NCBI RefSeq assembly: GCF_012272855.1
Contig: NZ_JAAXCQ010000001.1
Span: 124,001-188,000, forward strand
Source of the DNA: Arenibacter sp. 6A1
Lineage (GTDB): Bacteria > Bacteroidota > Bacteroidia > Flavobacteriales > Flavobacteriaceae
Reading direction: 5' to 3'
DNA: 64,000 bases
Shown: in pieces, positions 31,244 through 59,433 of the stretch
Position numbering within the stretch: the first letter of the stretch is position 1
How the letters are laid out: each line of letters opens with the position of its first letter
Notes under the pieces: model-generated
Database searches by the model: none
Told to the model about the DNA's origin: nothing
Seen by the model: the letters and a program-made list of their open reading frames with translations, nothing else
Made by a program: the position numbers and the translations under genes

Positions 31244-31323
31244 GGGCGTTCCCTCCTACGTCGGTCGGGCACTTGGCTGTATCCCTTGCTCCGCTGCGGG
31301 GATGCCGCCGCGGTCCCTAACGC
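31244..31323 (-). repeat. 80-bp structured dispersed repeat, copy A
   Basis: On the minus strand it begins GCGTTAGGGACCGCGGCGGC and ends GGAGGGAACGCCC. It differs from copy B at 2 of 80 positions (33 and 66 of the element). It can fold as a three-way junction: closing stem 1-5/74-78, hairpin one 18-25 with 39-49 (bulged), and hairpin two 55-61 with 68-73. It lies 3' of sigma copy 2 in the same orientation, beyond a hairpin at 31407-31453. Confidence 0.85.
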
Positions 31324-31406
31324 AGATCATCTAAAAAAGTAGCACCAACCAGAATTCACACCAGACCCCTACTAGGTGGTAGCACAGGAAGTTTACCCTA
31401 TATAAC

Positions 31407-31453
31407 AATAGCCCCCTATAAAAGCATTTGTTTTGCTTCTATAGGGGGCTATT
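31407..31453. terminator. long hairpin downstream of sigma copy 2
   Basis: A 20-bp stem with one mismatch (31407-31426 with 31434-31453) and a 7-base loop, 71 bases after the minus-strand sigma stop. It lacks a good T-tract, so it could be a terminator or an mRNA 3'-end stabiliser. Confidence 0.55.
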
Positions 31454-31523
31454 GGTGAAGTTATTACACGAACAATTTATAAAATCTCCCTTTTCATTCT
31501 TTATTGCGATTCCTTAGTAGCTA

Positions 31524-32105
31524 TTAATTCGTCAGCGTAAGTTGATGCTTCTCTACCATTTTTCGAAGATTTATCAAGGCATATCGCATTCTTCCCAAAG
31601 CAGTATTGATACTCACTCCTGTATTTTCCGATATTTCCTTAAAACTCATATCCCTATAAATGCGCATTTCTACCACCTCTCTTTGGTCTGCTGGCAATTC
31701 CTTTACCATTAGCGCTAGCTCTATATCTATCTGGTCTTTTATGAGTCTCCTTTCCGCGTTTAAATGGTCGTCTCCCATAACAGAGAAAATATTAAAATTC
31801 TTAGACACCTCAAACTTGGGCATTCTATTGTTTTTTCTAAAATAGTCTATGATTAGATTATGGGATATCCGCATTACCCAGGGCAAAAATTTCCCTTCTT
31901 CAACATACATTCCCTTTTTTAAGGTTTTAATCACCTTTATAAAAGTATCCTGAAATATGTCTTCGGTAACGACCCTGTCTTGAACTTTGGAGTAAATAAA
32001 GCTACTAAGGCGTTGATTGTGACGGTTTATCAATATTTCCAGAGACTTTTCGTCTCCATTGATATAATTGCTTACCAGTACTGAGTCTTCAATTAATAGT
32101 TCCAT
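31524..32105 (-). CDS. ECF-type sigma-70 family RNA polymerase sigma factor, copy 2
   Basis: Same length (193 residues) and same architecture as copy 1. The HNQRLSSFIYSK, FLPWVMRISHNLIIDYFR and MSFKEISENTGVSINTALGR blocks are conserved, but there are substitutions in region 2 (VVTEDIFQ against DITQDIFQ) and region 4 (REVVEMRIYRDMSF). A -7 box TATATTTG (minus, 32233-32240) lies upstream. No anti-sigma gene is adjacent. It is divergent from uvrA. The pair reads as a local tandem duplication. Confidence 0.93.
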   Translation of the reverse strand: MELLIEDSVLVSNYINGDEKSLEILINRHNQRLSSFIYSKVQDRVVTEDIFQDTFIKVIKTLKKGMYVEEGKFLPWVMRISHNLIIDYFRKNNRMPKFEVSKNFNIFSVMGDDHLNAERRLIKDQIDIELALMVKELPADQREVVEMRIYRDMSFKEISENTGVSINTALGRMRYALINLRKMVEKHQLTLTN

Positions 32106-32356
32106 ATAAATTACTTTTTAGGAGCCTAATAGCAAGCTTCTCTTTTTTGTAAAAAAAAAGCTATTTGGCAATTCCATTATTTTTTAAAAAAGTAATTTCA
32201 GGTCTATAGGTCGTTGGTACTAGGATTTGACCCAAATATATAAAAAATTCGGGTTTCCCCTAAAAGATTGTCATAAACAATAGCATTTTAATTGTATTAT
32301 GACTGCTGGCATTTTATAAAAACACATATTGTATCTTTGCTTTCTTAAATAGGCAT

Positions 32357-35140
32357 ATGGCTTCAATTAAAGATATAAATCCAAGGGAAAACATTATAAT
32401 TAAAGGAGCAAAGCTCCATAATTTAAAAAATATAGATGTCGTAATTCCTAGAAACAAATTAGTGGTGATCACTGGTTTGTCGGGATCTGGAAAATCGAGT
32501 TTGGCCTTTGACACCTTATATGCAGAGGGACAGAGAAGATATGTAGAGAGTTTATCTTCCTATGCGCGACAGTTTTTAGGCAAACTAGACAAGCCCAAGG
32601 TCGATTATATTAAGGGAATAGCCCCGGCCATAGCCATAGAACAAAAGGTAAATTCTACCAACCCTAGATCTACCGTAGGCACCACTACGGAAATATATGA
32701 TTATTTAAAATTGCTCTTTGCCCGTATCGGGCGCACCATTTCGCCCGTATCCGGAGAAGAAGTAAAAAAACATACGGTTACCGATGTTGTAGAGCACATT
32801 AAGTCCTTTGAGGAAGGCACCAAGTTATTATTGCTTGCCCCTATAACTATCAGTAAAGACAGAGACCCAATAAAATCCCTTCAACTATTCTCCAAACAAG
32901 GATATGCCAGAATATTTTACAAGGGCGAGGTTCTCCGAATAGATGATGATATTGAAGAAATAGATCGTGAGTTTCAGTTGGTCATAGACAGGATTATCTT
33001 CAAAAACGATGAAGATTTTTTCAATCGTCTGGCCAATGCTATTGACACGGCCTTTTTCGAAGGCAAGGGCGAATGCATCATTCAGGAATTAGCTTCGGGA
33101 AACAACACCCATTTTAGCAATAAATTTGAATTGGACGGCATGCAGTTCTTAGAGCCCAATGTTCATTTGTTTAGCTTTAACAATCCCTACGGAGCCTGCC
33201 CTAACTGTGAAGGCTATGGGGATATCGTAGGTATAGACGAAGATTTGGTGGTTCCCAATACAGCCTTGTCCGTATATGAAAATGCTATTTTCCCCTGGAA
33301 AGGAGAAAGTATGGGCGCCTATAGGGATCAACTGGTTAATGCGGCCTATAAATTTGACTTCCCCATTCACAAACCTTGGTACCAACTAAGCGAAGCCCAA
33401 AGACAATTAGTGTGGGACGGCAACAGCCATTTTACGGGCTTAACCGAGTTTTTTGAGATTTTAGAGGAAAAAAACTATAAAATCCAAAACAGGGTGATGC
33501 TATCTCGTTACCGTGGAAAGACCAAGTGTAATAGCTGTAAGGGAAAACGGTTGCGAAAGGAAACAGATTATGTTAGAGTTTGTGAAAAATCTATTTCGGA
33601 CCTCGTTGAAATGCCTATCGAAAACCTGATTCCATTTTTTAAGGAGATACAACTGAATGAAAATGATCAAAAAATAGCCCATCGCCTACTGCAAGAAATA
33701 AACAGTAGACTAGGGTTCCTTAACAATGTAGGCCTAAGCTATTTAACCTTGAACAGAAAATCGAACTCCCTATCCGGAGGCGAGAGTCAGCGTATTAATT
33801 TAGCCACCTCCCTAGGCAGCAGCCTTGTAGGTTCTATGTATATCTTGGATGAGCCCAGTATTGGCCTTCATCCAAAAGATACCGAAAATTTGATCGTAGT
33901 ACTAAAATCGCTCCGCGATTTAGGCAATACGGTTATTGTAGTAGAGCACGATGAAGACATTATGAGGGCTGCCGATGAAGTCATCGATATAGGGCCCAAA
34001 GCCGGTACCCATGGCGGGGAAGTAGTCGCGCATGGTACCATGGATCAAATCCTACAATCGAACTCCCTCACAGCTGCCTATTTAAATGGTAGCAAGAAAA
34101 TTGAGGTGCCCAAACAAAGAAGGGCCTATAAGAATTATATCACCATAAGGGGAGCCAGGGAAAATAACCTCAAGAATATCGATGTCACCTTCCCTCTCAA
34201 TGCGCTAACGGTTATTACCGGCGTGTCGGGGAGCGGTAAAAGTACCCTGGTGAAAAAACTATTATACCCGATTATCCTGAAGGAAATTGGCGGATATGGC
34301 GAAAAATCAGGTCAGTTCACTTCCGTAGAAGGTAATTATAAGGATATAAAACATATAGAGTTTGTAGACCAAAACCCAATAGGCAGGTCCTCTCGATCTA
34401 ATCCGGTTACCTATATAAAGGCCTATGATGATATTAGGAATCTTTTCGCCAACCAAAAATTAAGTCAATTAAGAGGCTATCAACCAAAACACTTTTCTTT
34501 TAATGTAGACGGGGGCCGCTGCGAGAAATGTAAGGGCGATGGTGAAATCACCGTGGAGATGCAGTTCATGGCCGATGTGTACTTGGAATGCGAGACCTGT
34601 TCAGGAAAACGATTCAAAAAAGAAGTCCTTGAAGTAAAATTCCATGAAGCCAACATAGACGATGTCCTTTCTATGACCATAGACGATGCCGTTGAATTTT
34701 TTGAAAAAAACAAACAGAACAAAATAGTAGGCAAATTAAAACCCCTACAAGATGTTGGCCTGGGCTATGTTACCCTAGGACAGTCCTCTTCTACCCTTTC
34801 CGGTGGCGAAGCACAACGTATAAAGCTAGCTTCCTTTTTGGTAAAAGGGAATACGGCCGATAAAGCCTTGTTTATTTTTGACGAACCTACCACGGGCTTA
34901 CATTTCCACGATATTAAAAAATTACTAAAATCCTTTAACGCCCTCATAGAAAAAGGCCATTCCATAACCGTTATAGAACACAATATAGATCTTATAAAAT
35001 GTGCCGATTATATTATCGATCTCGGATTGCAAGGCGGGGATAAAGGGGGCGATCTTATTGCACAGGGAACTCCGGAAGAAGTCGCCAAAAATAAAACCTC
35101 CTATACAGCAACCTACCTAAGGCCAAAGCTAAAAGCTTAG
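32357..35140 (+). CDS. uvrA: excinuclease ABC subunit A
   Basis: DNA-damage recognition ATPase of nucleotide excision repair, 927 residues. It has two ABC modules: Walker A GLSGSGKSS (40-48) and GVSGSGKST (about 622), with signatures LSGGESQRI and LSGGEAQRI. Zinc-finger cysteines are at CPNCEGYG (about 281) with CNSCKGKR (about 391), and at CEKCKGDG (about 722) with CETCSGKR (about 745). A -7 box TATCTTTG (32332-32339) lies 17 bases before the ATG. Repeat copy B follows 101 bp after the stop. Confidence 0.98.
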   Translation: MASIKDINPRENIIIKGAKLHNLKNIDVVIPRNKLVVITGLSGSGKSSLAFDTLYAEGQRRYVESLSSYARQFLGKLDKPKVDYIKGIAPAIAIEQKVNSTNPRSTVGTTTEIYDYLKLLFARIGRTISPVSGEEVKKHTVTDVVEHIKSFEEGTKLLLLAPITISKDRDPIKSLQLFSKQGYARIFYKGEVLRIDDDIEEIDREFQLVIDRIIFKNDEDFFNRLANAIDTAFFEGKGECIIQELASGNNTHFSNKFELDGMQFLEPNVHLFSFNNPYGACPNCEGYGDIVGIDEDLVVPNTALSVYENAIFPWKGESMGAYRDQLVNAAYKFDFPIHKPWYQLSEAQRQLVWDGNSHFTGLTEFFEILEEKNYKIQNRVMLSRYRGKTKCNSCKGKRLRKETDYVRVCEKSISDLVEMPIENLIPFFKEIQLNENDQKIAHRLLQEINSRLGFLNNVGLSYLTLNRKSNSLSGGESQRINLATSLGSSLVGSMYILDEPSIGLHPKDTENLIVVLKSLRDLGNTVIVVEHDEDIMRAADEVIDIGPKAGTHGGEVVAHGTMDQILQSNSLTAAYLNGSKKIEVPKQRRAYKNYITIRGARENNLKNIDVTFPLNALTVITGVSGSGKSTLVKKLLYPIILKEIGGYGEKSGQFTSVEGNYKDIKHIEFVDQNPIGRSSRSNPVTYIKAYDDIRNLFANQKLSQLRGYQPKHFSFNVDGGRCEKCKGDGEITVEMQFMADVYLECETCSGKRFKKEVLEVKFHEANIDDVLSMTIDDAVEFFEKNKQNKIVGKLKPLQDVGLGYVTLGQSSSTLSGGEAQRIKLASFLVKGNTADKALFIFDEPTTGLHFHDIKKLLKSFNALIEKGHSITVIEHNIDLIKCADYIIDLGLQGGDKGGDLIAQGTPEEVAKNKTSYTATYLRPKLKA

Positions 35141-35503
35141 GCTTTAGGCCTGTTTGCTTCTTTGATCCGCTAAAACCTAGGTGTTCCTCGGCTATAAACA
35201 TGGTGAAAAAACAATAAACTTCACTACTACCCTGTTTTTTTGCGTTAGGGACCGCGGCGGCATCCCCGCAGCGCAGCAAGGGATACAGCCAAGTGCCCGA
35301 CCGACGAAGGAGGGAACGCCCAAGCCATAAAAAACTGCACTACAATTACTTACAAGAATAACACCATTGTTTTCGCAATCCAATACTCTTTAAATCCCCC
35401 TCTTTTGTATCAGCGCTTTTTTGTTTAGTACCGTTTTTGGCATGTTGTTTGTATAGTTCTAATCGAATGTCAATAGTAGCATTCTGAATTAAAACCTTAT
35501 GAT
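35141..35503. other. 363-bp gene-free region with repeat copy B
   Basis: It contains the 80-bp repeat at 35242-35321 and the leader of the exported Arg/Tyr-rich protein. An antisense ORF across the repeat is an artefact of the repeat. No other signal was recognised. Confidence 0.6.
35242..35321 (+). repeat. 80-bp structured dispersed repeat, copy B
   Basis: It begins GCGTTAGGGACCGCGGCGGC and ends GGAGGGAACGCCC. It is 78/80 identical to copy A and 71/80 identical to copy C. Stems of the three-way-junction model: 1-5 with 74-78; 18-20 with 47-49 and 21-25 with 39-43, extended by 27-28 with 35-36; 55-57 with 71-73 and 60-61 with 68-69. It lies downstream of uvrA in the same orientation. Confidence 0.88.
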
Positions 35504-36763
35504 ATGAGAAATTTACTACTACTTGTTACTGCGCTAATTTTAGGTACTGCCCCTACCTTTGCGACTTCTCCTGAAGATAAGGCAACGATAAGCGATGCAT
35601 ATAGAAATCAAAACTCTTTTATATTTGTTGAAAGCGGCATTACTTTTTCCGTATACCCTGATGGGGAGTTCGATTTTTATATAGATGACCGTGTTGGTGG
35701 TATAAATGCCAATGTAAACTTTGGACGTACGAACATTACCTTCAACAGTGGTTACAACTATGACCCCTATGTTCAATACGACGATTACGGGGCGATTTTA
35801 CAAATTGAAAACGTACCTATTTACTACGATTATTACGGTAGGGTATCCCAAATAGGGAATGTCGATATCCGATACAGAAATTCTAGGGTTTCTAGAGTTG
35901 GTGGGCTACATGTTTACTACGACCATAGAGGATATTTTAGTCACCACAGAGGCTATATAAATGTGTATAACAGGCATTATGTTTACAGACCGTTCCACAA
36001 TTATTTTGCACGCCCAGCGGTAGGTTTCCACATGGTATACAATAGACCTTATAGAAGGTACTACGAGCCGGTAAGATACAGCTATTACAGACCATACCAC
36101 TATAACCCAAGGAGAGCACATGTGCATGTTGGCAAGCATTATAAATACCACCCTAAAAAACACAAAAAAGAAAAAATTTATAGAAATGACAAAAGAGTAG
36201 CTGTTAGGGACCATGGGTATAGAACCACCCCTGCGTCGAGGTCTAACAGGACTGTACAGCAATATAACGATCGGAATCATTATAGAAACTCTTCTTCGAG
36301 ATCTAATGCTGTTCAGGTGAACCATGATAGAAATAGAGACTCTAAAGACAGGGATTCGTACAAAAACAATAATGGTCATAGAAACTATAGGGATGCTGGG
36401 GACAGGTCTAGAACCCATAGATCGGTAACCAAAAAGGAAGTGACCACTACAAGAAGTAAAGGTACAGATCCAGGTTACCAAGATCGCAACAACAGCTCTA
36501 GGGCTTCGCGCTCTACCAGGGTCAGTACTAGAACATCGACTAAAAAGGAGGTTTATAATCAGCCGCAAAGAAATGTAACTAGGAATACTAGTGCTACAAA
36601 AAATAGACATGAAAAAATCCGTAAGGACGCTCCTTCTGAAAGATCAAAAGCGAGCTCAAGAACTGCTTCGAGAAGGTCTTCTGATAGGGAATCGTCTGGA
36701 AGGGTAAGAAGTAATGTATCCGGTTCAAATACATCAAGAACTGGAAATGTAAGAGGAAATTAA
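35504..36763 (+). CDS. exported Tyr/Arg/Ser-rich basic protein
   Basis: Secreted or envelope protein of 419 residues, function unknown. It has a signal peptide (about 1-20, ending TFA). Residues 35-135 form repeated beta-like segments (GGINANVNFG, IGNVDIRYRN, VGGLHVYYDH). A Tyr/His/Arg-rich stretch (about 140-230) is followed by a strongly basic, low-complexity Arg/Ser/Asn/Asp tail (about 235-419) that should be disordered. The N-terminal repeats recur in flavobacterial hypothetical proteins. The basic tail might bind DNA, anionic polysaccharide or surface glycans (speculation). Confidence 0.8.
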   Translation: MRNLLLLVTALILGTAPTFATSPEDKATISDAYRNQNSFIFVESGITFSVYPDGEFDFYIDDRVGGINANVNFGRTNITFNSGYNYDPYVQYDDYGAILQIENVPIYYDYYGRVSQIGNVDIRYRNSRVSRVGGLHVYYDHRGYFSHHRGYINVYNRHYVYRPFHNYFARPAVGFHMVYNRPYRRYYEPVRYSYYRPYHYNPRRAHVHVGKHYKYHPKKHKKEKIYRNDKRVAVRDHGYRTTPASRSNRTVQQYNDRNHYRNSSSRSNAVQVNHDRNRDSKDRDSYKNNNGHRNYRDAGDRSRTHRSVTKKEVTTTRSKGTDPGYQDRNNSSRASRSTRVSTRTSTKKEVYNQPQRNVTRNTSATKNRHEKIRKDAPSERSKASSRTASRRSSDRESSGRVRSNVSGSNTSRTGNVRGN

Positions 36764-36788
36764 GTTAGTTTTAGGTTAGTTGGTTGTA

Positions 36789-36829
36789 TAGCCCTGTTGT
36801 GAAATTTTTGCAACAGGGCTATTTTTTTT
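36789..36829 (+). terminator. Rho-independent terminator
   Basis: A perfect 11-bp stem (36789-36799 with 36811-36821), an 11-base loop and an 8-T run, 26 bases after the Arg/Tyr-rich protein stop. Confidence 0.92.
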
Positions 36830-36929
36830 GATTCCAAAAAGTTCCTTTACATAAATTCGGATAATGAAACTACTAACTTTATTGTTCTGGAGCTCTTAAA
36901 GGCAGAAAAAGGTTTACCTTGAAAAGAGG

Positions 36930-38399
36930 TTACATTCTTGTCCTTAATTTTTCTATATACTTGGCCAGTATCCTATACACATCTTCCGATATTTTAAACC
37001 GGTACAGGGCTATAACGTACACGAGCACTATTAAGGCGCTCTTAAGCGCGATATTAATTACCGGATGAAAAGGAAGCCGTATAAAATGAAAAAGCCCCCC
37101 TACCACAATTAAAAGCAGTACAACTTTAAAGGTATCTATAGTTATAGGCTGAATATGGAATTTAGATTTCACATAAATCAGTTTTATGCTATTATAAATG
37201 AAAAACGCCATAAAACTAGCAATTGCAGCGCCATCCAACCCATATTTAGGGATTAACCAAAGGTTCAACAATATAGTGAGTACGGCCAAAAGCACCCCTA
37301 AAAGCAACAGGGTTCTGTAAAAATCGGAATTATACAGAATGGCATTGTTGTTTCCCAGCAAGGCATCATATACTTTGGCCAGGCCTATAATGACAACAAT
37401 AATATAGCCCCCTCTATAACTATCGGGCAGTAAATCGAATAAATTATCTAGGTTTAAAATTATTAATAGAAACAAAAGTCCCGATACTATAAAAAGTGTC
37501 AGTGAGCTTTTCCTATATAAACTTTTTAAGGCTTGGTGGTCTTGTTTATGTAGAATTTCTGCGGTCAACGGATAGGTTATATTGTGCATGGACCTAGACG
37601 GAACAGCTATCACCGTGGCAATATACCCTGCCACACTATAATAAGCTACATTTTCTATGGCAATGAACTGATTGATCATCACCTTATCTACCTCCAACAG
37701 GACGATGGCTGCCGATCCTCCCAATATAATCAAGGCACTATAGCTAATGATTTCAGGGGTGTTTTTAGGGAAATTAAAATTTAGTCGTAGCTGTTGCAGT
37801 CGAAGCGCGTACAGCTTCATAACCACGGTCCGTAGCACATAAAGACCAACCAAGGCATTTAGAAATTGAGGCACAGAAATAAGGTTCCAATACACCAACA
37901 TCAAAAGCACCGTCACCCCTATCCTACTAAAAACCTCTTTCATGAAATTGCCAAAAACAGATTTCATACGCACTTTGGCCCAGGCATAGTAGACTTCAAA
38001 ATAAGCCATAGCCACCCCCACGATAAATATATGCCAAACGTACCCTTTTACGATCGGATTCTCCCTGGACAAAAACAGCCCTATAGCCTCATTGGCAATA
38101 TAGGATAGCACACCAATAGGCACTACTAATAAAAGTGGCAATAGTAGCATTAAGCTTAAAAAACCGTCGGTTTTTTGACGGGCTTGGAATCCAGCATAGT
38201 ATTTCACCAAGGCATTGGGAACCCCAAATGCCAGCACAGGCATTATCACTGCTGAAGCCGATAAAATAACGTTGACCAATCCAAAGTATTCATCGCTTAA
38301 AAAACGCGTATATAGAAACAGTAGATTTATTCCCCCAATGGCAAATCCAAAGTAGGTGATCAGGGTATTGCTCAAGGATTGCTTTAAAACTATTCCCAT
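36930..38399 (-). CDS. polysaccharide/oligosaccharide flippase, Wzx-like
   Basis: Inner-membrane transporter of the MATE/MOP superfamily, 489 residues, with about 12-14 predicted helices. It opens with SLSNTLITYFGFAIGGINLLFLYTRFLS-type sequence and has FGVPNALVKYYAGFQ in helix 2-3, typical of lipid-linked sugar flippases. It is the last gene of the DUF4834-YfhO-GT4-flippase run and overlaps the glycosyltransferase gene by 10 bases. Likely role: moving undecaprenyl-linked glycan across the membrane. Confidence 0.88.
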   Translation of the reverse strand: MGIVLKQSLSNTLITYFGFAIGGINLLFLYTRFLSDEYFGLVNVILSASAVIMPVLAFGVPNALVKYYAGFQARQKTDGFLSLMLLLPLLLVVPIGVLSYIANEAIGLFLSRENPIVKGYVWHIFIVGVAMAYFEVYYAWAKVRMKSVFGNFMKEVFSRIGVTVLLMLVYWNLISVPQFLNALVGLYVLRTVVMKLYALRLQQLRLNFNFPKNTPEIISYSALIILGGSAAIVLLEVDKVMINQFIAIENVAYYSVAGYIATVIAVPSRSMHNITYPLTAEILHKQDHQALKSLYRKSSLTLFIVSGLLFLLIILNLDNLFDLLPDSYRGGYIIVVIIGLAKVYDALLGNNNAILYNSDFYRTLLLLGVLLAVLTILLNLWLIPKYGLDGAAIASFMAFFIYNSIKLIYVKSKFHIQPITIDTFKVVLLLIVVGGLFHFIRLPFHPVINIALKSALIVLVYVIALYRFKISEDVYRILAKYIEKLRTRM

Positions 38400-39670
38400 T
38401 GTAAATATTTGGACAATTTTCTGGTCAACTCCCTTCTATGGTATTGTCCTATATTGGCCGATGGCAGTATTAGCTCCTTCGTTTTATAGGCCATAAACCA
38501 TTCTAACAGCTGTTTTTTTATAAGCTCTTTTTCTTGATATTCAAAGGTTTTACCGGTATGGGTATTGGCTACGATCTGTCCTACTTCCCATCCCTTAGGA
38601 CCAATTCCCAAGATAGGCCTTTTGGCCGCCATATATTCGAAAACCTTGCCGGGAATAATTCCTTTTGTTTCCTCAGAATCGATCTCGACCAATAACAGTA
38701 CTTGCGATTTTTTTTGAAAACGCAAAGCTTCTTCATGAGAAACATACCCTAAGAGCTCGGTATAAGGCTTTAGACCAGCACCATATACACTCTCTAGGAC
38801 ATCTTCACTGACAACCCCTGCCAATTGCAATGTAAAGCTTTCTTTAAAACTTCCATTCTCATCAATCAGTTCGGCCAGGGCCTTCCATAAACTAGCCGGA
38901 TTACGGCCAGAAAGCAAGGAGCCTATATGCGAAATGGTAAAAGATTCGTCTAAGGGTACCGGTACATCCTCCTTGGTATCAAAACCGTTAGTAATGACTT
39001 CAATGGGTTTATTGGTAATGACCGAAAATTCGTTTTTGGTCGTATGGCTAGTAACCAAAATTTTATCGGCCCCGTTCAATACCAAATTCTCTAGATATTC
39101 GTGTTTTTTTCTTGAAACGCGACTGAGTTTTAACTTTTCGTGATACCCTATAGATGTCCAAGGGTCTCTAAAATCGGCCAGCCAATTTATAGAATGACGT
39201 TTTTTTAAGCCATGCCCAATAAGGTGTACACTGTGTGGTGGGCCCGTAGTAATAATGGTTTCGATGTTTTCTTTTTGAAGCACTTCTGCTAAAAACTTCA
39301 CAGAAGGTTTTACCCAAAATTTTCTGGCATCCGGAATAAATAAATTGCCCCGCACCCACAACAAGGCTTTTTCTAGGAGGGTCTGATTTTTTGTCGTTAT
39401 GATTCCGGCACTGATTTGGGCCGTCTTTTTTGATGAAAAAATACTAGCAAGCCCATAGGGTTCAAATATTGGATGGCGATACATTTTTATTCCCTCTGGT
39501 ACCTCGTCTACAAAAGATTCATCGGTCATGGGGTAATGGGGATTTTTAGGCACATACAATACCGGTTCTATATTAAAATCCCTAAGATACTTTACAAATT
39601 TTAACCATCGCTGAACCCCTGGTCCTCCTGCTGGGGGCCAATAATAGGTAATTATGAGAACCTTCTGCAT
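38390..39670 (-). CDS. GT4-family glycosyltransferase
   Basis: GT-B-fold sugar transferase of 426 residues. The N-terminus KVLIITYYWPPAGGPGVQRWLKF carries the typical glycine-rich acceptor loop. The C-terminal half has TNGFDTKEDVP, SHIGSLLSGRNP and the donor-binding LVEIDSEETKGIIPGKVFEYMAAKRP with the conserved E-x7-E-like pair. It overlaps both neighbours (1 base with yfhO-like, 10 bases with the flippase), so the three are translationally coupled. The sugar transferred is unknown. Confidence 0.9.
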   Translation of the reverse strand: MQKVLIITYYWPPAGGPGVQRWLKFVKYLRDFNIEPVLYVPKNPHYPMTDESFVDEVPEGIKMYRHPIFEPYGLASIFSSKKTAQISAGIITTKNQTLLEKALLWVRGNLFIPDARKFWVKPSVKFLAEVLQKENIETIITTGPPHSVHLIGHGLKKRHSINWLADFRDPWTSIGYHEKLKLSRVSRKKHEYLENLVLNGADKILVTSHTTKNEFSVITNKPIEVITNGFDTKEDVPVPLDESFTISHIGSLLSGRNPASLWKALAELIDENGSFKESFTLQLAGVVSEDVLESVYGAGLKPYTELLGYVSHEEALRFQKKSQVLLLVEIDSEETKGIIPGKVFEYMAAKRPILGIGPKGWEVGQIVANTHTGKTFEYQEKELIKKQLLEWFMAYKTKELILPSANIGQYHRRELTRKLSKYLQWE

Positions 39671-42102: not shown

Positions 42103-42123
42103 GGCTGGTTTTATGGTAAAGGG

Positions 42124-50372: not shown

Positions 50373-50491
50373 CCCTTTGTATAGAAAAACTCTAGGATTG
50401 TGCACAAGTCCCTCCTAAGAGTTTACCCTATTAAGAATTCAATCACCGACACTTACCTAGTGATTTCTGTAGCACTAAGATTTTGACGCAC

Positions 50492-51291: not shown

Positions 51292-52503
51292 ATGACTGAT
51301 AATTATTTTAAAACCTTTCCAAACAAGGAAGGTTTTTTTGAATCCTATGGAGGCGCATTTATACCTCCTGTTCTAGAGGAGGAAATGAAAAAAATAACCG
51401 ATGCCTATTTTGCCATAAGCAAATCGCATGCTTTTATTTCCGAATTAAGAAGTATCCGCAAACATTACCAAGGAAGGCCTACACCTGTTTATTATTGCAA
51501 CCGTTTATCCGAAAAATACGGCGGACGCATTTATTTAAAGCGAGAAGACCTAAACCATACTGGAGCTCACAAATTAAACCATTGCATGGGCGAGGCGCTA
51601 TTAGCGAAGCACATGGGCAAGAAGAAACTAATTGCCGAAACCGGTGCAGGACAGCACGGGGTTGCTTTGGCTACTGCCGCAGCTTATTTTGGATTGGAAT
51701 GTGAGATTCACATGGGCGAGGTGGATATGGCAAAGGAGCACCCGAATGTTGTACGAATGAAAATTTTAGGGGCCACGGTAGTACCGGTATCCCACGGGCT
51801 AAAAACCTTGAAAGAAGCTGTAGACTCTGCCTTTGAAGCGTATTTAAAGGATCCTATTAACACCATCTATTGTATCGGATCTGTAGTAGGACCACACCCT
51901 TTTCCTATGATCGTAAGGGATTTTCAACGCATTATAGGCATAGAAGCCAAGGATCAGTTTTTTGACATGACTGGCGAATTACCAGATAATGTAGTCGCAT
52001 GTGTTGGCGGAGGAAGTAATGCTATGGGAATTTTCTCGGCCTTTTTGGACGACAAAGAGTGTTCCCTTTACGGGGTTGAACCCGGAGGCCGGTCTTTGGA
52101 ATACGGAGAACATGCCGCCACAATGACCTTAGGATCTCCTGGCGTAATCCATGGCTTTAAATGCTATATGCTCAAAGACGAAAACGGAGAACCAGGTGCG
52201 GTACATTCTGTAGCCAGTGGGTTAGATTATCCCGGCGTAGGTCCAGAACACAGTATGCTCAAAGACCAAGAGAAAGTAACTTACGATTCTGTTTCCGACC
52301 AAGAGACTATAGATGCTTTTTATGAGTTGAGCCGTTTAGAAGGAATTATTCCTGCTTTAGAAAGCGCCCATGCGGTAGCTTATGCTATAAAATTAGCGCA
52401 AAAGAACCCACAATCATCCATTTTAGTCAACCTCAGTGGTAGAGGTGATAAGGATATCGATTTTATAGTGGATACTTACGGACTACCAAGTGATAACAAA
52501 TAA
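51292..52503 (+). CDS. trpB: tryptophan synthase beta subunit, solitary copy
   Basis: Condenses indole with serine to make tryptophan, 403 residues. All key residues of the standard enzyme are visible: H93-K94 (PLP lysine, HTGAHKLNH), E116 ([11 protein letters not shown]), the phosphate loop GGGSNAMG and SGRGDKDID at the C-terminus. [12 protein letters not shown] and PALESAHA are also canonical. It stands alone, with no trpA or other trp genes on either side and a hairpin downstream. A second complete trp operon elsewhere is likely but not shown. Confidence 0.93.
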
Positions 52504-52856
52504 GGAGTCCAAAACAAAGGGCGTTTATGAGACTAAAGTTTCATAAACGCCCTTTCATACAGCTTTTTAAAAAAAAATCCATTCGCTTTCTAGAAATTCC
52601 TTAAAAAAACAAGATTCAACTTTCTTTATATATTGTTCATTCATGACTTTCTAAATGCCAAAAAACAGATATCGCTCTTATCCTAAAGTAAAAAACATGG
52701 ATGGGATAAAACGATTTCAACTTTTTTTCTACCTCCCTACTTCCCGTAATTACACCAAAGTCTCACCGTAAGATAATTATTCCCAATGATATAAAATTAA
52801 CTAGGGGCAGGATTCGGTTTTTTTATGTATTTTTAAAAGAAAAGTTACCCAGCCAT
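52504..52856. other. 353-bp intergenic region after trpB
   Basis: It starts with the trpB terminator-like hairpin; the rest is AT-rich with only one unsupported 38-codon ORF (52655-52771). No other element was recognised. Confidence 0.5.
52516..52555 (+). terminator. hairpin downstream of trpB
   Basis: A perfect 15-bp stem (52516-52530 with 52541-52555) and a 10-base loop, 13 bases after the stop. The T-tract is short, so termination may be partial. Confidence 0.7.
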
Positions 52857-53186
52857 ATGATAACAATAACAAAAGATAACGACAACACTCACATCTTTAG
52901 TCTACAATCCGATACGGGACAGTCTCTTCTAAAAAGCGTCCCTTACACTACTAAAGAATCTATGCATAAAACCCTTACCGACCTTAAGGTTTTAGTGACG
53001 CTGTCCTCTGCTTTTGAACGCAAGACAAATTACCACGGTAAATTTTTCTTTATATTAAAGGACAAGGAGGGAAAAATTATTGGAAACTCTATGTTTTACA
53101 CCTCTGAAGCCGGCATGGAAAATGGGATCAAAAATTTAAAAAAAATAGTGGATCTACTTCCCGACACCGGGCTTGTAGACCTATAG
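52857..53186 (+). CDS. DUF1508 (YegP-like) protein
   Basis: Small cytoplasmic protein of 109 residues made of two DUF1508 repeats. The first (about 10-50, FSLQSDTGQSLLKSVPYTTKE) is degenerate. The second (about 60-105, FFILKDKEGKIIGNSMFYTS then EAGMENGIKNLKK) is canonical, with the YTSEAGMENGI signature. The function is unknown. The gene overlaps the convergent threonine aldolase gene by 6 bases. Confidence 0.85.
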   Translation: MITITKDNDNTHIFSLQSDTGQSLLKSVPYTTKESMHKTLTDLKVLVTLSSAFERKTNYHGKFFFILKDKEGKIIGNSMFYTSEAGMENGIKNLKKIVDLLPDTGLVDL

Positions 53187-54203
53187 TTTCACCAATATTT
53201 CCAATAGTTTTTCATGCATCTCTTGGGTATAATCTAGATGGGTCACAATACGCAATTTGCCTTGCCCCATATCTATAATCTGTATATTATGAGCCTTTAG
53301 CTTTTGCATAAAAGCAGCCATACTCATGAAGCTTTCATCGAGTTCAAAAATGATAATATTGGTCTCGGTGGGCGCCACTTCTTTTATAAAAGGCAAGCCT
53401 TGCAGCACTGTACTGATTTCTTTGGCCTTGCTATGATCTTCGGCAAGTCTTTCTATATGGTTATCCAGGGCATAGATTCCGGCTGCAGCCAGATATCCTG
53501 CTTGCCGCATATTTCCCCCGAACACTTTCCTTATCCGTAAAGCCTTATTCATATCTTCTTTACTGCCAACAAGGACAGAACCTACAGGACAGCCTAGTCC
53601 TTTACTTAAACAAACACTTATAGTGTCGAACAAAGCTCCGTATTGCAATGCCGATTCGTTTTTTGCGACCAGGGCATTCCATAACCGGGCTCCATCTAAG
53701 TGGTATTTTAACTGATGGCGATCGCACACTTCCCTGATAGCCTTTAGTTCCTGAAAATCCCAACAGGCCCCACCACCTTTATTGGTGGTATTCTCTATAG
53801 AAACCAAAGATGTTAATGGACTGTGATAGAAGTCTGGAGGATTGATAGCTTCCTTTACCTGGTTTGCTGTCATCATTCCACGATGTCCATCTACCAACTT
53901 ACAAGAAACACCACTATTGAAACTAACACCACCACCTTCATAATGAAAGATATGCGAATATTTATCGCAGATTAATTGCTCTCCCGGCTGGGTATGCAAT
54001 TTTATAGCAGTTTGGTTGGCCATGGTACCGCTTGGAAAAAACAGCGCAGCTTCCATCCCAAACATATCGGCTATTTTTTTCTCCAAAGCATTTACGGAAG
54101 GGTCGTTTTTAAAAACGTCATCACCGACTTCGGCGCTCATCATAGCTTCTAGCATACCTTTCGTTGGCTTGGTTATAGTATCGCTGATTAGATTTATTTG
54201 CAT
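53181..54203 (-). CDS. ltaE: low-specificity L-threonine aldolase
   Basis: PLP enzyme that cleaves L-threonine or L-allo-threonine to glycine and acetaldehyde, 340 residues. The PLP lysine is K201 (CLSKGLGCPVGS). SDTITKPTKGMLEAMMSAEVGDD, PSGTMANQ, HLDGARLWNA and ENTTNKGGG are all diagnostic. It supports glycine/serine/one-carbon balance. It is monocistronic and ends tail-to-tail with DUF1508. Confidence 0.95.
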   Translation of the reverse strand: MQINLISDTITKPTKGMLEAMMSAEVGDDVFKNDPSVNALEKKIADMFGMEAALFFPSGTMANQTAIKLHTQPGEQLICDKYSHIFHYEGGGVSFNSGVSCKLVDGHRGMMTANQVKEAINPPDFYHSPLTSLVSIENTTNKGGGACWDFQELKAIREVCDRHQLKYHLDGARLWNALVAKNESALQYGALFDTISVCLSKGLGCPVGSVLVGSKEDMNKALRIRKVFGGNMRQAGYLAAAGIYALDNHIERLAEDHSKAKEISTVLQGLPFIKEVAPTETNIIIFELDESFMSMAAFMQKLKAHNIQIIDMGQGKLRIVTHLDYTQEMHEKLLEILVKL

Positions 54204-54487
54204 ACGGTATTGAATTTATATGAAGCTTAAAGGAATACACTAGCGCTTCCTTTAAAAAATTAGTTTTTAAAATTATATAAAAAAGATGTCACCACCATAC
54301 GCTTAGGATATTTTGAAAATATCAACTCATAAAAGAAGGAAAAAAACCTCTTGGACCCTCCTTAAAAGCAGGGGGTAACAAGATAACAGCTCATTTGGTT
54401 TTTAATAGCGGCCGAGCCCCCAAAAAAGTTAAATTTTTCCCGGCACTATTCTCCTTTATTATTCTATTTTTGTTAAAAAATGAAGAT

Positions 54488-55589
54488 ATGATAATTAGTT
54501 CAGACCAATACAAAGGTCTTTTAGATCGCCTTGGTGCGTTAAGGAGGTATCTTTGACGTCGATGCCAAGCTTATAGAAATAGAAAACGAGGAAGAAAAGA
54601 CCTTAGCGCCAGACTTTTGGAACAATCCGCAAGAAGCTCAGGAACAGATGAAGTTAATCCAATCCAAAAAACAATGGGTAGACGACTTTAACGCTGCAAA
54701 AAGCCTAGTGGGTGATTTGGAAATTTTTCTAGAATTCCACAAGGAAGGAGAAATGTCCGAAAACGACTTAAGGAGCCACTATGAAAAAACCGTGGACGCT
54801 ATTGAGAAACTTGAGTTTAAGAACATGCTTTCTTCTGAGGGTGATGAATTGACGGCCGTGCTTCAGATTACTGCTGGAGCTGGAGGTACAGAGAGCTGTG
54901 ATTGGGCTGCCATGTTAATGCGCATGTATATGATGTGGAGCGAAAAACACGGCTATAAGGTAAAAGAACTCAACTACCAAGAGGGCGATGTGGCCGGTAT
55001 AAAAACTGTGACCCTAGAAATTGAGGGCGACTTTGGTTTTGGATGGCTAAAAGGTGAAAATGGCGTGCACCGTTTGGTGCGTATTTCTCCATTTGATAGT
55101 AATGCCAAGCGCCACACCTCCTTTGCTTCGGTATATGTGTACCCCTTGGTCGATGATAGCATTGAAATTGATATCAATCCGGCCGATATTGAAATAACCA
55201 CAGCAAGATCAAGCGGTGCGGGAGGTCAGAATGTCAACAAGGTAGAGACAAAGGTGCAGTTGACCCATAAGCCTACCGGGATTCAAATTTCCTGTTCAGA
55301 CTCTAGGTCGCAACACGACAATAGAGCCACGGCCTTAAAAATGCTAAAATCGCAACTCTATGAGATAGAATTGCGCAAAAAATTAGAGGCCCGACAAGAA
55401 ATTGAAGCCACCAAAATGAAGATAGAATGGGGTTCGCAAATAAGAAATTATGTGATGCACCCCTATAAATTGGCGAAAGACGTTCGAACGGGTGAAGAAA
55501 CAGGGAATGTAGATGCTGTAATGGACGGAAATATAGACCAGTTTCTTAAGGCTTATTTAATGATGATGGGGCAAAAGGATTCTGATTAA
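54488..55589 (+). CDS. prfB: peptide chain release factor 2 with programmed +1 frameshift
   Basis: Releases nascent chains at UGA and UAA codons. Translation starts at ATG 54488 and runs 22 codons to the in-frame TGA at 54554-54556. The site reads AGG AGG TAT CTT TGA C, so a +1 slip at CTT lets reading resume with GAC at 54555. The joined product is 366 residues, the normal RF2 length, beginning [20 protein letters not shown] and continuing [13 protein letters not shown]. The SPF motif ([15 protein letters not shown]) and GGQ motif ([13 protein letters not shown]) are intact. A -7 box TATTTTTG lies at 54465-54472. Confidence 0.97.
54539..54557 (+). promoter_or_regulatory. RF2 autoregulatory frameshift site
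   Basis: TAAGGAGGT (54540-54548) is a nine-base match to the complement of the 16S rRNA tail. It is followed by the slippery CTT and the in-frame stop TGA C (54554-54557). Low RF2 levels favour the +1 shift and thus more RF2. The three-base gap from AGGAGG to CTT equals the E. coli arrangement. Confidence 0.9.
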
Positions 55590-55686
55590 TCATAATACCC
55601 CAGAGCATCCCTTTGAATAATAGGGGAAACCATCATTTTTAAAACGCATAAAATTTTAAAATAATTTAATTGTCAAAAATTAAACC

Positions 55687-56031
55687 ATGATCAAAATTTA
55701 TCACAATCCCAGATGTAGTAAATCTAGAGAAGGATTAAAATTACTGGAAAACTCTGGTAAGGATTTTCAGGTCATTAAATACCTCGAAGACATCCCTACA
55801 AAAGAAGAACTTCGTATGTTATTGAATTATCTTTCTATCACCGCCGAAAATTTGGTACGGAAAAACGAAGCTATTTGGAAAGAGAATTTTAAGGGCAAAC
55901 TACTTTCTGAAGAGGAGATTATAGATGCCATGATTGCGAATCCTAAATTAATAGAACGCCCCATTGTGGTGAAAGGTGAAAAGGCCGTTATAGGAAGACC
56001 GACCGAAAAAATAAACGATATTTTAGCCTAA
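55687..56031 (+). CDS. arsC: arsenate reductase (glutaredoxin-type), ArsC/Spx family
   Basis: Small thioredoxin-fold protein of 114 residues. The catalytic cysteine is C10 in YHNPRCSKSREGL, and the family block LIERPIVVKGEKAVIGRP carries the conserved arginine. It can reduce arsenate to arsenite with glutathione or glutaredoxin. No ars efflux or regulator genes are near, so it may instead have a general redox role, as with other YffB-type members. Confidence 0.88.
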   Translation: MIKIYHNPRCSKSREGLKLLENSGKDFQVIKYLEDIPTKEELRMLLNYLSITAENLVRKNEAIWKENFKGKLLSEEEIIDAMIANPKLIERPIVVKGEKAVIGRPTEKINDILA

Positions 56032-56199
56032 GAACTCTATAATCTTATCTTATAAACCCCCTATAGGCATGCAACAGATTTAATAAGATCTACTTGCATG
56101 CCTATTTACAATAAACCACCTCAGACTATTTAACAAACCTTTAACCTTAGCAGGTTAAACCATCCTTTAAATTTAGAATCTTATAAAACAGTTACTATT

Positions 56200-56688
56200 A
56201 TGAAAATTAAGAACAAAATATTTTTAAGTTTTTCTTTCATTTTACTATCCTTCCCTGTGGTAAGTGCCCAATACGGTTACGGAAACGGCTATGGATATGG
56301 TAATGGATACGGGTATGGTGGCAGACAAAGAAACAGTCTTCCACAGATTCAGGAAACACCAAAAGAGCCAGAAAAGCTAACTGCCCAACAAATGGTAGAT
56401 GCCGAAATGCCAAATTTGACGGAAATTTTGGGACTAAATGAATTTGAAAAAGCAATTTTAAGCACCACATTAACCAAGTACTTACAAGAACGTATCGAAT
56501 TACAGATTTTAAAACTCAGTCCCGAAAAAATGAAGGAGGGTTTTGAGAGAATCACAGAAAGACAAGACGAAGATCTTAAATCCGGGCTTCCAATTGAAAA
56601 ATATGAAGCTTTTGTAGAGCTTCAGAAAAACGGATTTAAAAACAAAAAGAAGAAGAAGAAAAACCGAAAAAGAAAATCAAAAGATTAG
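56200..56688 (+). CDS. exported small protein with GYG repeats and Lys-rich tail
   Basis: Periplasmic or surface protein of 162 residues, function unknown. It has a signal peptide (about 1-23, ending VSAQ) and a Gly/Tyr/Asn low-complexity segment (about 24-41, YGYGNGYGYGNG). An acidic-helical core (about 58-135, TAQQMVDAEMPNLTEILGLN) precedes the basic tail (about 145-162, mostly Lys/Arg). It ends 1 base before the TonB-type outer-membrane protein, so the two are probably co-expressed and may interact. Confidence 0.75.
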   Translation: MKIKNKIFLSFSFILLSFPVVSAQYGYGNGYGYGNGYGYGGRQRNSLPQIQETPKEPEKLTAQQMVDAEMPNLTEILGLNEFEKAILSTTLTKYLQERIELQILKLSPEKMKEGFERITERQDEDLKSGLPIEKYEAFVELQKNGFKNKKKKKKNRKRKSKD

Positions 56689-56689
56689 C

Positions 56690-59200
56690 ATGAAAAGATT
56701 ACTCCCTATTACCTTATTCTTTATTTCCCTACTCACCTTTGCACAAGGGCCTCAAGACAACCAAAGGCTAGTAAAAATAACGGGGACCGTGTTAGATGAA
56801 GAGACAAAAGAACCCTTGGAATACGCCACTCTTGTCTTGCAAAGTGTTAGGAATCCGGATAAGATTACAGGGGGAATCACTAATGCCGAAGGTAAGTTTG
56901 AGGTTGAAGCCTCTGCCGGGAACTACAACATCAGCATTGAATATATATCATTCAGGTCTCACAAGCTTCCGAATTACAGCTTGAGATCTGATACCGAACT
57001 CGGTATCATAAACTTAGGTCTCGATGTGGCACAACTCGAGGGTATTGAGCTTGTTGGAGAACGGACCACCGTTGAGCTCCGATTGGATAAAAAAGTATAC
57101 AACGTAGGTTCCGATCTAACGGTTAAAGGAGGATCTGTGACCGATGTTTTGGGGAATGTTCCCTCAGTAAACGTCGATGTGGAAGGAAATATAAGCTTAA
57201 GAGGTAATGAAAGCGTCCGCATCCTTATTAACGGTAAGCCCTCTGCCCTATCTGGTCTAAGTCCGGAAGCCCTACAACAGCTACCAGCCGATGCTATTGA
57301 AAAGGTAGAAGTCATTACCAACCCATCTGCAAGATATGATGCCGAAGGTACCGCAGGGATCTTAAACATCATTTTAAAACAAAGCAAAACAGCCGGACTG
57401 AATGGTTCTGTAAACGTATACGCCGGGAATCCCGATAATTTTGGAGGAGCCGTTAGCTTAAATTTACGACGCGAAAAACTAAACTTTTTCACCAATACTA
57501 CCTATAGGTACAGAAATGGACCAGGGAATGCCCTTTTTGAACAAGAGAACTTTGACGAAAACGGCAATACCCGTAACTATCAAAATGAAATTAGAAAGTA
57601 CGATAGAAAGGATAAAAGTTTTAACACCAATATCGGATTCGAATTTTTCCTGGACGAGAACAGCAGTATCACCAACTCCCTAGTTTTTGGAAGGTCTAAT
57701 GGTGATAACACCGTTGATGTAGATTTCTTTAATTTCGATGCCAATAGAAATCCGACCATCCAAAGAAACAGGTTTACCACTGAGGATGAATTTGAGGAAG
57801 AGGTACAGTACTCCTTAAATTACCAGAAAAAATTTGATAAGGACGGACATGAACTAAAATTCGATTATCAATATTCGAAAGGTACGGACGATGAGGATTC
57901 TGTCATTAGTGAAGTCATCTTGGGCGATAATATAGCCTTGGACACCGAAAAAACCCTAAATGCAGAAACACAAATCACCCAATTACTACAATTAGATTAC
58001 GTTTTGCCTTTTGGATCCGACAACCAATCTCAATTTGAATTAGGGTATAGAGGTACTTTCAACAATAATAACACCGATTTTGATTTTGGTATTTTAGAAG
58101 ACAATGGTGGTTTTAATAGTGACCCTAACTTTAGCAATGAATTAAACTACAAAGAGTATGTAAATGCTGCCTACACTCAATTAGGAACTAAAATAGATAA
58201 AATCAGTGTTCTTGGTGGACTAAGAGTTGAAGCTTCGGACATTGAAATAGAACTCCTTAACAACAACGAAATCTCTAAAAAGAACTATGTAAATTGGTTC
58301 CCATCGGTATTCCTAGGATATGAGTTTTCTGAAAAGGAACAGTTAACCCTTAGCTATAGCAAGCGACTTAGAAGACCAAGGTCTAGGTTTATAAACCCAT
58401 TCCCTTCTAGATCTAGCAACACCAACCTTTTTCAGGGTAATCCAGACTTAGATCCGACCTTTACCAATGCTTTTGACTTAGGGTATTTAAAACGTTGGGA
58501 CAAAATAACCTTTAACACCTCTGGATATTTCAATAGATCTACCGGCGTTTTTCAATTTATCACCAAAGAAACTGGAGATTTTGTAAGCATTGAGAATCCA
58601 GACGATCCGGAAAATCCAATTGTAGTACCAGTACAGGCAATGACCCCGACTAATTTGGCTACAGAAGACCGCTATGGGATGGAGTTTACCACTACTTATA
58701 CTCCCTTGCGCAACTGGAGGTTAACTTGGAACGTAAATGCTTTCCAAAGGGAAACACAAGGAGATTATATCTACACCAATAGTAATAACGAAGAAATAGT
58801 TCAGAATTTTGATTCTAAAAACTTCTCTTGGTTTACAAGATTCAGTGCCAAATTACCATTACCGGGGAAAATTGACTTTCAAACAAACTTCTTTTATATG
58901 GGTGCTTCCAAAAATGCCCAAAGCAATAATAAGGGTATGTTAAGTTCTGACTTAGCTTTAAGCAAGGATGTTTTAAACAAAAAAGGGTCGATTTCGTTGA
59001 ACGTGGGCGATATTTTTAATACTAGAAAACGCAGAAGGGAAACCAGAACAGAAAACGTATTATCATATAGCGAATTTCAATGGAGAGAAAGACAAATTAC
59101 CTTATCTTTTCAGTACCGCTTTAACCAGCCTCTAAACCAGAAGCAAAGGAGCGGACCGGGATCTGGAAACGGTGATAACGATATGGAGTTTGGAGGATAA
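56690..59200 (+). CDS. TonB-dependent receptor-like outer-membrane beta-barrel protein
   Basis: Outer-membrane protein of 836 residues. It has a signal peptide (about 1-18), a carboxypeptidase-regulatory-like domain (about 28-110, GTVLDEETKEPLEYATLVLQ), a plug-like region (about 130-235, LRGNESVRILINGKPSALSG then EKVEVITNPSARYDAEG) and a long barrel. It matches the outer membrane beta-barrel family that lacks a classical TonB box. The tail after the barrel is Gly/Asp-rich (SGPGSGNGDNDMEFGG) rather than ending in an aromatic residue. It is translationally linked to the GYG protein. Confidence 0.9.
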   Translation: MKRLLPITLFFISLLTFAQGPQDNQRLVKITGTVLDEETKEPLEYATLVLQSVRNPDKITGGITNAEGKFEVEASAGNYNISIEYISFRSHKLPNYSLRSDTELGIINLGLDVAQLEGIELVGERTTVELRLDKKVYNVGSDLTVKGGSVTDVLGNVPSVNVDVEGNISLRGNESVRILINGKPSALSGLSPEALQQLPADAIEKVEVITNPSARYDAEGTAGILNIILKQSKTAGLNGSVNVYAGNPDNFGGAVSLNLRREKLNFFTNTTYRYRNGPGNALFEQENFDENGNTRNYQNEIRKYDRKDKSFNTNIGFEFFLDENSSITNSLVFGRSNGDNTVDVDFFNFDANRNPTIQRNRFTTEDEFEEEVQYSLNYQKKFDKDGHELKFDYQYSKGTDDEDSVISEVILGDNIALDTEKTLNAETQITQLLQLDYVLPFGSDNQSQFELGYRGTFNNNNTDFDFGILEDNGGFNSDPNFSNELNYKEYVNAAYTQLGTKIDKISVLGGLRVEASDIEIELLNNNEISKKNYVNWFPSVFLGYEFSEKEQLTLSYSKRLRRPRSRFINPFPSRSSNTNLFQGNPDLDPTFTNAFDLGYLKRWDKITFNTSGYFNRSTGVFQFITKETGDFVSIENPDDPENPIVVPVQAMTPTNLATEDRYGMEFTTTYTPLRNWRLTWNVNAFQRETQGDYIYTNSNNEEIVQNFDSKNFSWFTRFSAKLPLPGKIDFQTNFFYMGASKNAQSNNKGMLSSDLALSKDVLNKKGSISLNVGDIFNTRKRRRETRTENVLSYSEFQWRERQITLSFQYRFNQPLNQKQRSGPGSGNGDNDMEFGG

Positions 59201-59220
59201 TTCCTGAAACAATTAAAATT

Positions 59221-59250
59221 AAAAGCTGCCCGAAAAGGCAGCTTTTTTTA
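59221..59250 (+). terminator. Rho-independent terminator
   Basis: A perfect 10-bp stem (59221-59230 with 59237-59246), a 6-base loop and T residues, 20 bases after the outer-membrane protein stop. Confidence 0.92.
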
Positions 59251-59353
59251 TGTCTTAATTTAGGCAACTTTCCATAAGGCTCTATAACCGATCAACACAA
59301 ATCAGCAAAGTAGACCAGGAATAGTATTAATTACTAATCGTTTATGAATCTGC

Positions 59354-59433
59354 GCGTTAGGGATAGCGGCGGCATCCCCGCAGCATCGCAAGGGATATAG
59401 CCAATAGCCCGACCGACCAAGGAGGGAACGCCC
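59354..59433 (+). repeat. 80-bp structured dispersed repeat, copy C
   Basis: It begins GCGTTAGGGATAGCGGCGGC and ends GGAGGGAACGCCC, and differs from copy B at nine positions (11, 12, 32, 33, 34, 45, 52, 53 and 65). All are unpaired in the three-way-junction model. It lies 153 bases 3' of the TonB-type gene, beyond that gene's terminator, in the same orientation. Confidence 0.88.

Follow-up and report, generated by a model that had tools for sequence, protein, structure and literature searches.

A Bacteroidota-wide three-way-junction repeat that shares its core with Flavo-1 and probably acts as folded DNA

The element described here is an 80-bp interspersed repeat that is present in three copies in a 64,000-nucleotide stretch of the genome of Arenibacter sp. 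6A1 (contig NZ_JAAXCQ010000001.1, positions 124,001 to 188,000), hereafter called the window. It belongs to a Bacteroidota-wide family whose members combine the P2/P3 hairpin known from the Rfam family Flavo-1 (RF01705) with two further parts, the closing stem P1 and the additional arm P4. The element folds into a three-way junction of P1, P4, and a long P2/P3 helix that contains A.G and G.A mismatches, and this fold is supported by covariation in all helices. An earlier note on this DNA had suggested selection on RNA or cruciform DNA structure. Selection on a single-strand fold is strongly supported because pairs changed on both sides occupy 200 cells in an alignment of 95 homologues vs 52.8 in shuffles, with such changes in all four helices. 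The family is probably an interspersed DNA element resembling repetitive extragenic palindromic (REP) sequences and bacterial interspersed mosaic elements (BIMEs), one whose active form is folded DNA and not RNA.

The three copies (Table 1) are the only covariance model matches in the window (66-70 bits). The earlier note had given coordinates and strands for three 80-bp copies, which proved exact, and its unrelated flanks and ten differing positions (11, 12, 32-34, 45, 52, 53, 65, and 66) were confirmed; Pfam agrees with its placement of each copy 3' of a same-strand gene for a sigma factor, UvrA, or a TonB-type receptor. All three copies occupy the same place in a sister genome (G009), copies 1 and 2 being 77/80 and 75/80 identical, respectively.

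Table 1. Element copies in the window and structural parts of copy 2 (window positions).
Feature	Coordinates	Strand	Remarks
Copy 1	31244..31323	minus	A subfamily; 200 bp 3' of sigma-70-family gene; model R1 66.7 bits
Copy 2	35242..35321	plus	A subfamily; 101 bp 3' of uvrA; model R1 66.4 bits
Copy 3	59354..59433	plus	A subfamily; 153 bp 3' of TonB-type receptor gene; model R1 70.4 bits
P1 5' arm (GCGTT), copy 2	35242..35246	plus	3' arm 35315-35319 (AACGC); 100% paired in 95 homologues
P2 5' arm, copy 2 (positions 7-9, 11-12)	35248..35253	plus	Pairs with 35293-35294 and 35296-35298
P3 hairpin, copy 2 (positions 16-49)	35257..35290	plus	G.A mismatches and bulged C
P4 hairpin, copy 2 (positions 60-72)	35301..35313	plus	GNA loop; covariation in P4
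3' flank of copy 2	35322..35333	plus	Consensus AAATTATTATGC genome-wide (80 copies); copy 2 departs after AA

A model search and covariation analysis of the kind that the earlier note had proposed found many homologues, with more both-side changes than in shuffles. Among the 95 model matches, 96.2% of cells pair, both-side changes occur in 19 of the 24 pairs, and pairing falls to 45-47% when the partner is shifted by one base. Loci L235-L314 were picked by a 5' sequence pattern, and columns 1-11, 13, 15, 16, and 18-24 are invariable in copies so found; 30 of the 95 rows do not match this pattern, P1 (GCGTT/AACGC) varies among those, and both-side changes in three of its five pairs are seen in these unselected rows. 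One alignment (A5) is fitted to the structure. In another (A2; 48 sequences, namely the window copies, locus L092, and 44 of the 58 short copies that had been extracted), 93.5% of cells pair vs 84.5% in shuffles, and internal mismatches are found in 48/48 sequences (G.A at 13/72 and 18/67, A.G at 10/75), although in most rows their 5' letters were set by the pattern used to pick the copies.

Within the A subfamily, the strongest mutual information among 78 copies is found at 15/49, 32/34, 11/53, and 12/52. Position 12 pairs with 52 in 70/78 A copies through four pair types (CG 63, AT 5, GC 1, TA 1; unpaired 8), and the same pair across the 95 homologues reads UA 44, AU 34, GC 12, CG 1, GU 1, and other 3; 11/53 is paired in 48/78 A copies (CG 35, TA 13). 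Both pairs are formed in copy 3 of the window, and copies 1 and 2 carry a C.T mismatch at 11/53 in P2. Positions 19 and 45 form a pair that is usually a wobble; positions 32-34 and 65-66 are loops, in which 32 and 34 are correlated and 65 is G in 67/78 A copies, and P4 probably contains inner tandem G.A pairs. The claim of the earlier note that all variation lies in unpaired positions is false for 11, 12, 52, and 53, since 12/52 and 11/53 pair and covary. Its fold was half right: the stem 55-57/71-73 gives way to 7-9/55-57 together with P4 at 60-61/71-72, pairing that the three window copies alone could not reveal. The P3 arm is far longer in other subfamilies than in copy 2, and the orthologous locus L161/L208 shows a change of TA/TA to CC/GG in P2, plus two loop changes. 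A separate loose match at L161:71-154 is coding sequence.

Flavo-1, reported in Genome Biol. 2010 (PMC2864571, in the part available) and also named in the available parts of PMC9723704 and PMC9029176, is filed in Rfam as 'Gene; sRNA' (small RNA). The Rfam model is a single hairpin, the P2/P3 of the element, without P1 and P4. An Rfam search of the window returned 0 matches above the gathering threshold, so that there is no Flavo-1 call on the window copies, and a search around copy 2 at E up to 10 gave no Flavo-1 match. B-type relatives in the source genome match Flavo-1 at 42.7-55.4 bits and relatives in other taxa at 42.3-65.3 bits (gathering score 42), and one covariance model detects both the A-type window copies and the B-type relatives. 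In seven stretches of contig C58, 3/9 elements are detected by the Rfam model. Flavo-1 matches fall on the B-type partners of A copies in inverted pairs (L007, L010), and among 21 matches in 18 other loci, 20 lie on three-way elements and one on a hairpin-only form. Because of these Rfam matches on B-type relatives and the 20/21 that are three-way, we conclude that the element and Flavo-1 have a common core and that the window's A subfamily lies outside the Rfam model. The two are alike in the P2/P3 hairpin with the internal mismatches of the window copies and in their phylum, but the Rfam model lacks P1 and P4 and misses the A subfamily and some other subfamilies. Given this overlap with Flavo-1, the earlier note was right about related elements in flavobacterial genomes; the 'sRNA' label is not supported here. 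The hairpin-only Flavo-1, at L314:5933-6006, has different ends (UUUUAGCCC...GGAAAUAGC) and lies in the same Polaribacter contig stretch as a three-way element.

The filing in Rfam corresponds to an alternative in which the element is a structured RNA, either an sRNA or a 3' untranslated region (3' UTR) stability or processing element, selected in each transcript. The strong covariation, the position of the window copies 3' of genes, and the frequent G.U pair at 19/45 would fit such an RNA, but its folding energy is no better than that of shuffles (z -1.2, 0.51, and -0.53), and copy 3 is flanked on both sides by predicted terminators, at 59221-59246 (plus strand) and 59577-59605 (minus strand); a search near copy 1 gave none. 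In DNA, loops of the GNA type are particularly stable. Among 61 small P4 loops, GNA occurs 14 times and TTTA 4 times, and the GNRA (1) and UNCG (0) loops that an RNA might show are nearly absent. Wobbles in the P3/P4 arms (29/1096) are rarer than in tRNA stems (16/270; p=0.012), and the fold of diverse copies is recovered better by DNA energy rules (0.760) than by RNA rules (0.597).

Gene context was counted for 80 copies of the source genome (G000; 4.67 Mb, 60 contigs) drawn from its better-matching copies, of which 75 were classified. The copies are intergenic, with an open reading frame (ORF) of at least 90 codons overlapped by 3/80. In tandem contexts, 22 copies are sense and 12 antisense to the genes (p=0.12), a lean toward the strand of a transcript, but in other taxa (54 loci, 45 classified, 4 overlapping an ORF) antisense is as frequent as sense (15 sense, 19 antisense), and the pooled counts (37 vs 31, p=0.54) reveal no fixed orientation relative to the gene. 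Divergent gaps, which hold promoters, are avoided: they contain 4/75 copies in the source genome and 2/45 elsewhere, and convergent gaps contain 37/75 in the source genome; on C58, where a crude ORF caller was used, divergent gaps hold 0/18 placed elements despite comprising 9100/37946 gap bases (24%), and convergent gaps (22% of gap bases) hold 8/18. For F. psychrophilum, the available part of PMC9723704 reports several 5' transcribed regions that coincide with Flavo-1 matches, as would be expected of an RNA, but describes the matches as indistinctly sense or antisense, with no preference and many of them outside transcribed regions. Because of the sense and antisense counts and the terminators flanking copy 3, a 3'-UTR signal or a small RNA, two candidates of the earlier note, fits poorly, there being no significant orientation preference, and its REP-like candidate fits best; we regard the RNA reading as unlikely.

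The family is large in the source genome and widespread in the phylum. When up to 3 mismatches are allowed, the source genome has 162 matches to a 27-base pattern from the 3' part, far more than chance would give (0 when the pattern is reversed), and 147 to the full 80-mer. Counted by a 5' pattern, there are 221 copies in the source genome, 205 in G009, and 2-9 in 16 other congeners. A scan with a 5' pattern gave at least 115 stretches (L235-L349), and the 80 examined are Bacteroidota by title, including Flavobacteriales, Bacteroidales, Cytophagaceae, and others; in these, the P3 and P4 arms vary wildly in length and sequence, and an Arenibacter nanhaiticus contig (L235) holds an A-type copy. 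The model search in other taxa covered 63 of the 80 examined loci and 23 of 30 loci from genome scoring, in which at most 29 candidates per genome are scored and counts saturate. Across the family, the three-way junction spans about 70 to over 160 nt. A search of phages and plasmids with copy 2 gave no match, and the B-type pattern is present in one viral contig stretch. On a short contig (L126:5044-5132 and 5829-5916), a B-type element lies about 700 bases upstream of the start of a 16S rRNA gene, and several B copies sit near the end of a contig.

On the right flank, positions +1 to +12 of the 80 copies have a strong consensus, AAATTATTATGC, after a conserved CCC, which becomes weaker to about +33; it may represent either the element end or a target preference. 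A weaker 3'-flank motif, W-A-A-N-N-A, is found in 76 other Bacteroidota loci, and the 5' flank is marked only by a pyrimidine at -1 and T-richness.

The source and sister genomes are 92-94% identical over syntenic DNA, and 10/10 A copies in four syntenic stretches are common to both; with other congeners, alignment is limited to the genes, at about 75%, and fails between them. In 19 orthologous pairs, the element is identical at 1474/1531 positions (96.3%) vs 2184/2862 aligned bases (76.3%), plus 356 gap columns, in the adjacent 80-base flanks, and 3/55 changes in 17 full 80-mer pairs fall outside the positions listed as variable. On the complete 268-kb C58, 13 A copies have 0-1 mismatches of 65 fixed positions and none has 2-26 in an ungapped scan that would miss copies with indels, and all 20 matches (13 A and 7 B/C) of a model search that uses speed filters are full length. 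The G009 stretches gave 12 full matches and one chance-level match, and 94/95 model matches in other taxa are full length, the remaining one being the hairpin-only form. Because partly decayed copies are absent from C58 and full-length matches are near-universal, the copies are not eroding in the way that dead insertions would. Copies less than 10 kb from each other are more alike (p=0.0002; 95 of 100 listed rows, the duplicate at C8:69386 and four rows with 2 mismatches being omitted). Concerted changes relative to G009 were found at 8 sites in 3/6 same-stretch pairs, two of the six being more than 10 kb apart (p=0.002; 17 of 19 orthologue pairs, with a list of variable positions drawn up after viewing the copies), and in 130 other pairs the mean is 0.185 per pair, with at least one site in 22/130. 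Since neighbours resemble each other and change in concert, these comparisons of sequence point to gene conversion between neighbouring copies.

The 221 and 205 copies vs 2-9 in 16 congeners point to a copy burst before the G000/G009 split, massive loss elsewhere being the less simple reading. A rival proposal is that the element has been domesticated as a DNA site for the nucleoid, gyrase, or replication restart and is now under selection wherever it lies, with mobility only its history. The absence of decayed copies on C58, the conservation of the element in place vs its fast flanks, the sharing of all 10 compared copies with the sister species, the enrichment of convergent gaps (37/75), and intervals between copies on C58 that are a little more regular than random ones (CV, coefficient of variation, 0.63; 5.1% of simulations as low) are in line with such a site. 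This proposal is nevertheless improbable in our estimate: the element is not a general need of the cell because 16 congeners have only 2-9 copies, and hypervariable P3/P4 arms that covary are more than a simple protein site would require.

Close pairs of elements give the family a further resemblance to REP systems. A second element lies within 1.1 kb in 11/71 3-kb loci (nearly all A-centred), at four C58 places, and in 3/18 B-centred loci. All 18 close pairs are inverted (p=8e-6) and join different subfamilies, and their 5' ends face inward in 16/18 (p=2e-8 at 1/4), the exceptions being L035 and L444; one pair outside the genus also has its 5' ends inward, with a 140-bp spacer (L294). The nearest two A copies observed as a pair are separated by 1295 bp (L156), and the instability of perfect inverted repeats may explain why none lie closer. 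Mosaic modules recur among thirteen spacers, most with ATTG-rich arms. By analogy, the pair layout is that of a BIME or REPIN (a REP doublet forming a hairpin) with other parts. As described in the available part of PMC6006769, REP, BIME, and REPIN sequences share with the element an intergenic location, high copy number, foldability, inverted pairs, and mosaic composites; the present element differs in its three-way junction, where those have a short hairpin, in its heterotypic close pairs, and in lacking both a GT[AG]G foot and an adjoining REP-associated tyrosine transposase (RAYT) gene. Neither the three-way form nor the DNA reading nor the inverted pairs were found described in the literature searched, which was mostly without subscription papers or supplements and did not extend to the supplementary REP table of PMC6006769, where a structure for subclass 2.6 might be listed. 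The spacer modules (e.g., L007:1581-2031) comprise a hairpin, GCAAATGCAA-CGAC-TTGCATTTGC, and ATTG-rich arms with a 7-base period, are common to several intergenic regions, and look similar to the TAACTGA repeats of Beggiatoaceae (available part of PMC4679880); a profile built from these arms proved too weak (7/80).

A cognate enzyme was sought among the genes that accompany the element. That the copies are true REP sequences of a RAYT, namely of TnpA-REP subclass 2.6 of Bacteroidetes, is a reading that is largely refuted and that we consider very unlikely. The subclass 2.6 genes are said to be flanked by 'atypical secondary structures' (PMC6006769, part available), the source genome has RAYT-like genes with roughly matching motifs, the element occurs in 16/23 genomes with a RAYT vs 17/125 others among 148 genomes, and at one orthologous locus in three congeners it lies 1.1-1.3 kb from a RAYT-like gene. 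However, it is found in only 2/30 RAYT loci, one of which is the source genome's own, and the 5/32 genus Y1 loci with the element are two in the element-rich source genome and that single orthologous locus in three congeners, where another gene intervenes and a different repeat flanks the RAYT-like gene. In addition, no RAYT-element association is found within the taxonomic family of the source genome (p=0.31), G009 carries 205 copies and a single Y1 gene, 147 codons long, and no GTAG or GT[AG]G foot was found in the flanks of the element in the source genome or other Bacteroidota loci. The different repeat, of about 180 bases on both sides of the RAYT-like gene (L138:987-1491 and 2045-2263; L151:917-1465 and 2045-2247), and not the three-way element, may be the RAYT's own REP. 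A RAYT-like gene (L124:8725-9291 and 10347-10886; G000:C58:256368-256955) is present as two near-identical direct copies 1.6 kb apart. The end of the second copy differs and seems to be frameshifted, and nearby lies a third copy that is degenerate and contains stops.

Other candidates were also rejected. The L090-type Y1 protein co-occurs with the element across the 148 genomes (20/34), but the element is present at 1/30 of its loci (the L090 locus itself) and there is no association within the taxonomic family (p=0.12). Its Y motif resembles that of subclass 1.2 as quoted in the available part of PMC6006769. The ends of IS200/IS605 elements are similar to the present element in their structured subterminal DNA but differ in that the L090 Y1 gene has its own unrelated end repeats. 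There is no constant neighbour gene: for 100 of 101 proteins at 54 loci, the genes next to the element are ordinary and diverse, the commonest of 175 Pfam families, among those listed, being MORN_2 (4). A stand-alone GIY-YIG nuclease is likewise dismissed, with Pfam GIY-YIG in 2/100 and a regular-expression search of all loci giving UvrC and one false frame twice. An attC site does not fit on inspection, the element ends GTT...AAC being the reverse of the attC order.

Two features of the window lie beside the copies. Adjacent to copy 1, two sigma-70-family genes (30190-30771 and 31524-32105, minus strand) with 74% identity across 300 bases have the appearance of a tandem duplication. At 59987-61159 (minus strand) lies a gene for a bacterial protein matching Pfam MATCAP, named for a microtubule-associated tyrosine carboxypeptidase.

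Several observations weigh against an element that is read as folded DNA. No cognate enzyme was found among the RAYT and L090-type Y1 loci, there is no replication-strand bias by GC skew, and no insertion polymorphism appears among the 10 A copies compared with G009. The 11/53 pair is missing in 30/78 A copies (mostly C.T), the 19/45 pair is a G.U wobble in 53/95 rows, as RNA would allow, and the fold of A copies is recovered worse by DNA energy rules (0.399) than by RNA rules (0.538). The loop CTTGT (14), a hallmark of neither DNA nor RNA, ties with GNA as the most frequent of the small P4 loops. The 22:12 lean toward sense could be genuine, and a pair 1.2 kb apart in another genome (G150:C18) has the opposite arrangement. 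The folded-DNA reading nonetheless remains the probable one. The functional form would be folded single-stranded DNA (ssDNA), exposed in replication or repair, and a trans-acting enzyme that recognizes ssDNA structure would read the fold and would have spread the element in bursts; the same enzyme may still drive conversion between copies. Broken copies would be removed by purifying selection, conversion, or both, and the heterotypic pairs may be survivors, since close perfect inverted repeats would be unstable. A more specific proposal, which we put forward tentatively, is that Flavo-1 itself is a folded-DNA element and that Bacteroidota possess a REP/REPIN-like three-way-junction system, which a non-Y1 enzyme spreads and keeps homogeneous and in which head-to-head heterotypic pairs are the replicating unit.

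If the folded-DNA reading is correct, a widespread 'small RNA' family of Rfam would become a DNA element, and sRNA annotations in Bacteroidota genomes would be corrected. It would also predict an ssDNA-structure protein, as yet new, in Bacteroidota. The 20 intact copies on one 268-kb contig would offer a clean test system for the upkeep of hundreds of non-coding repeats.

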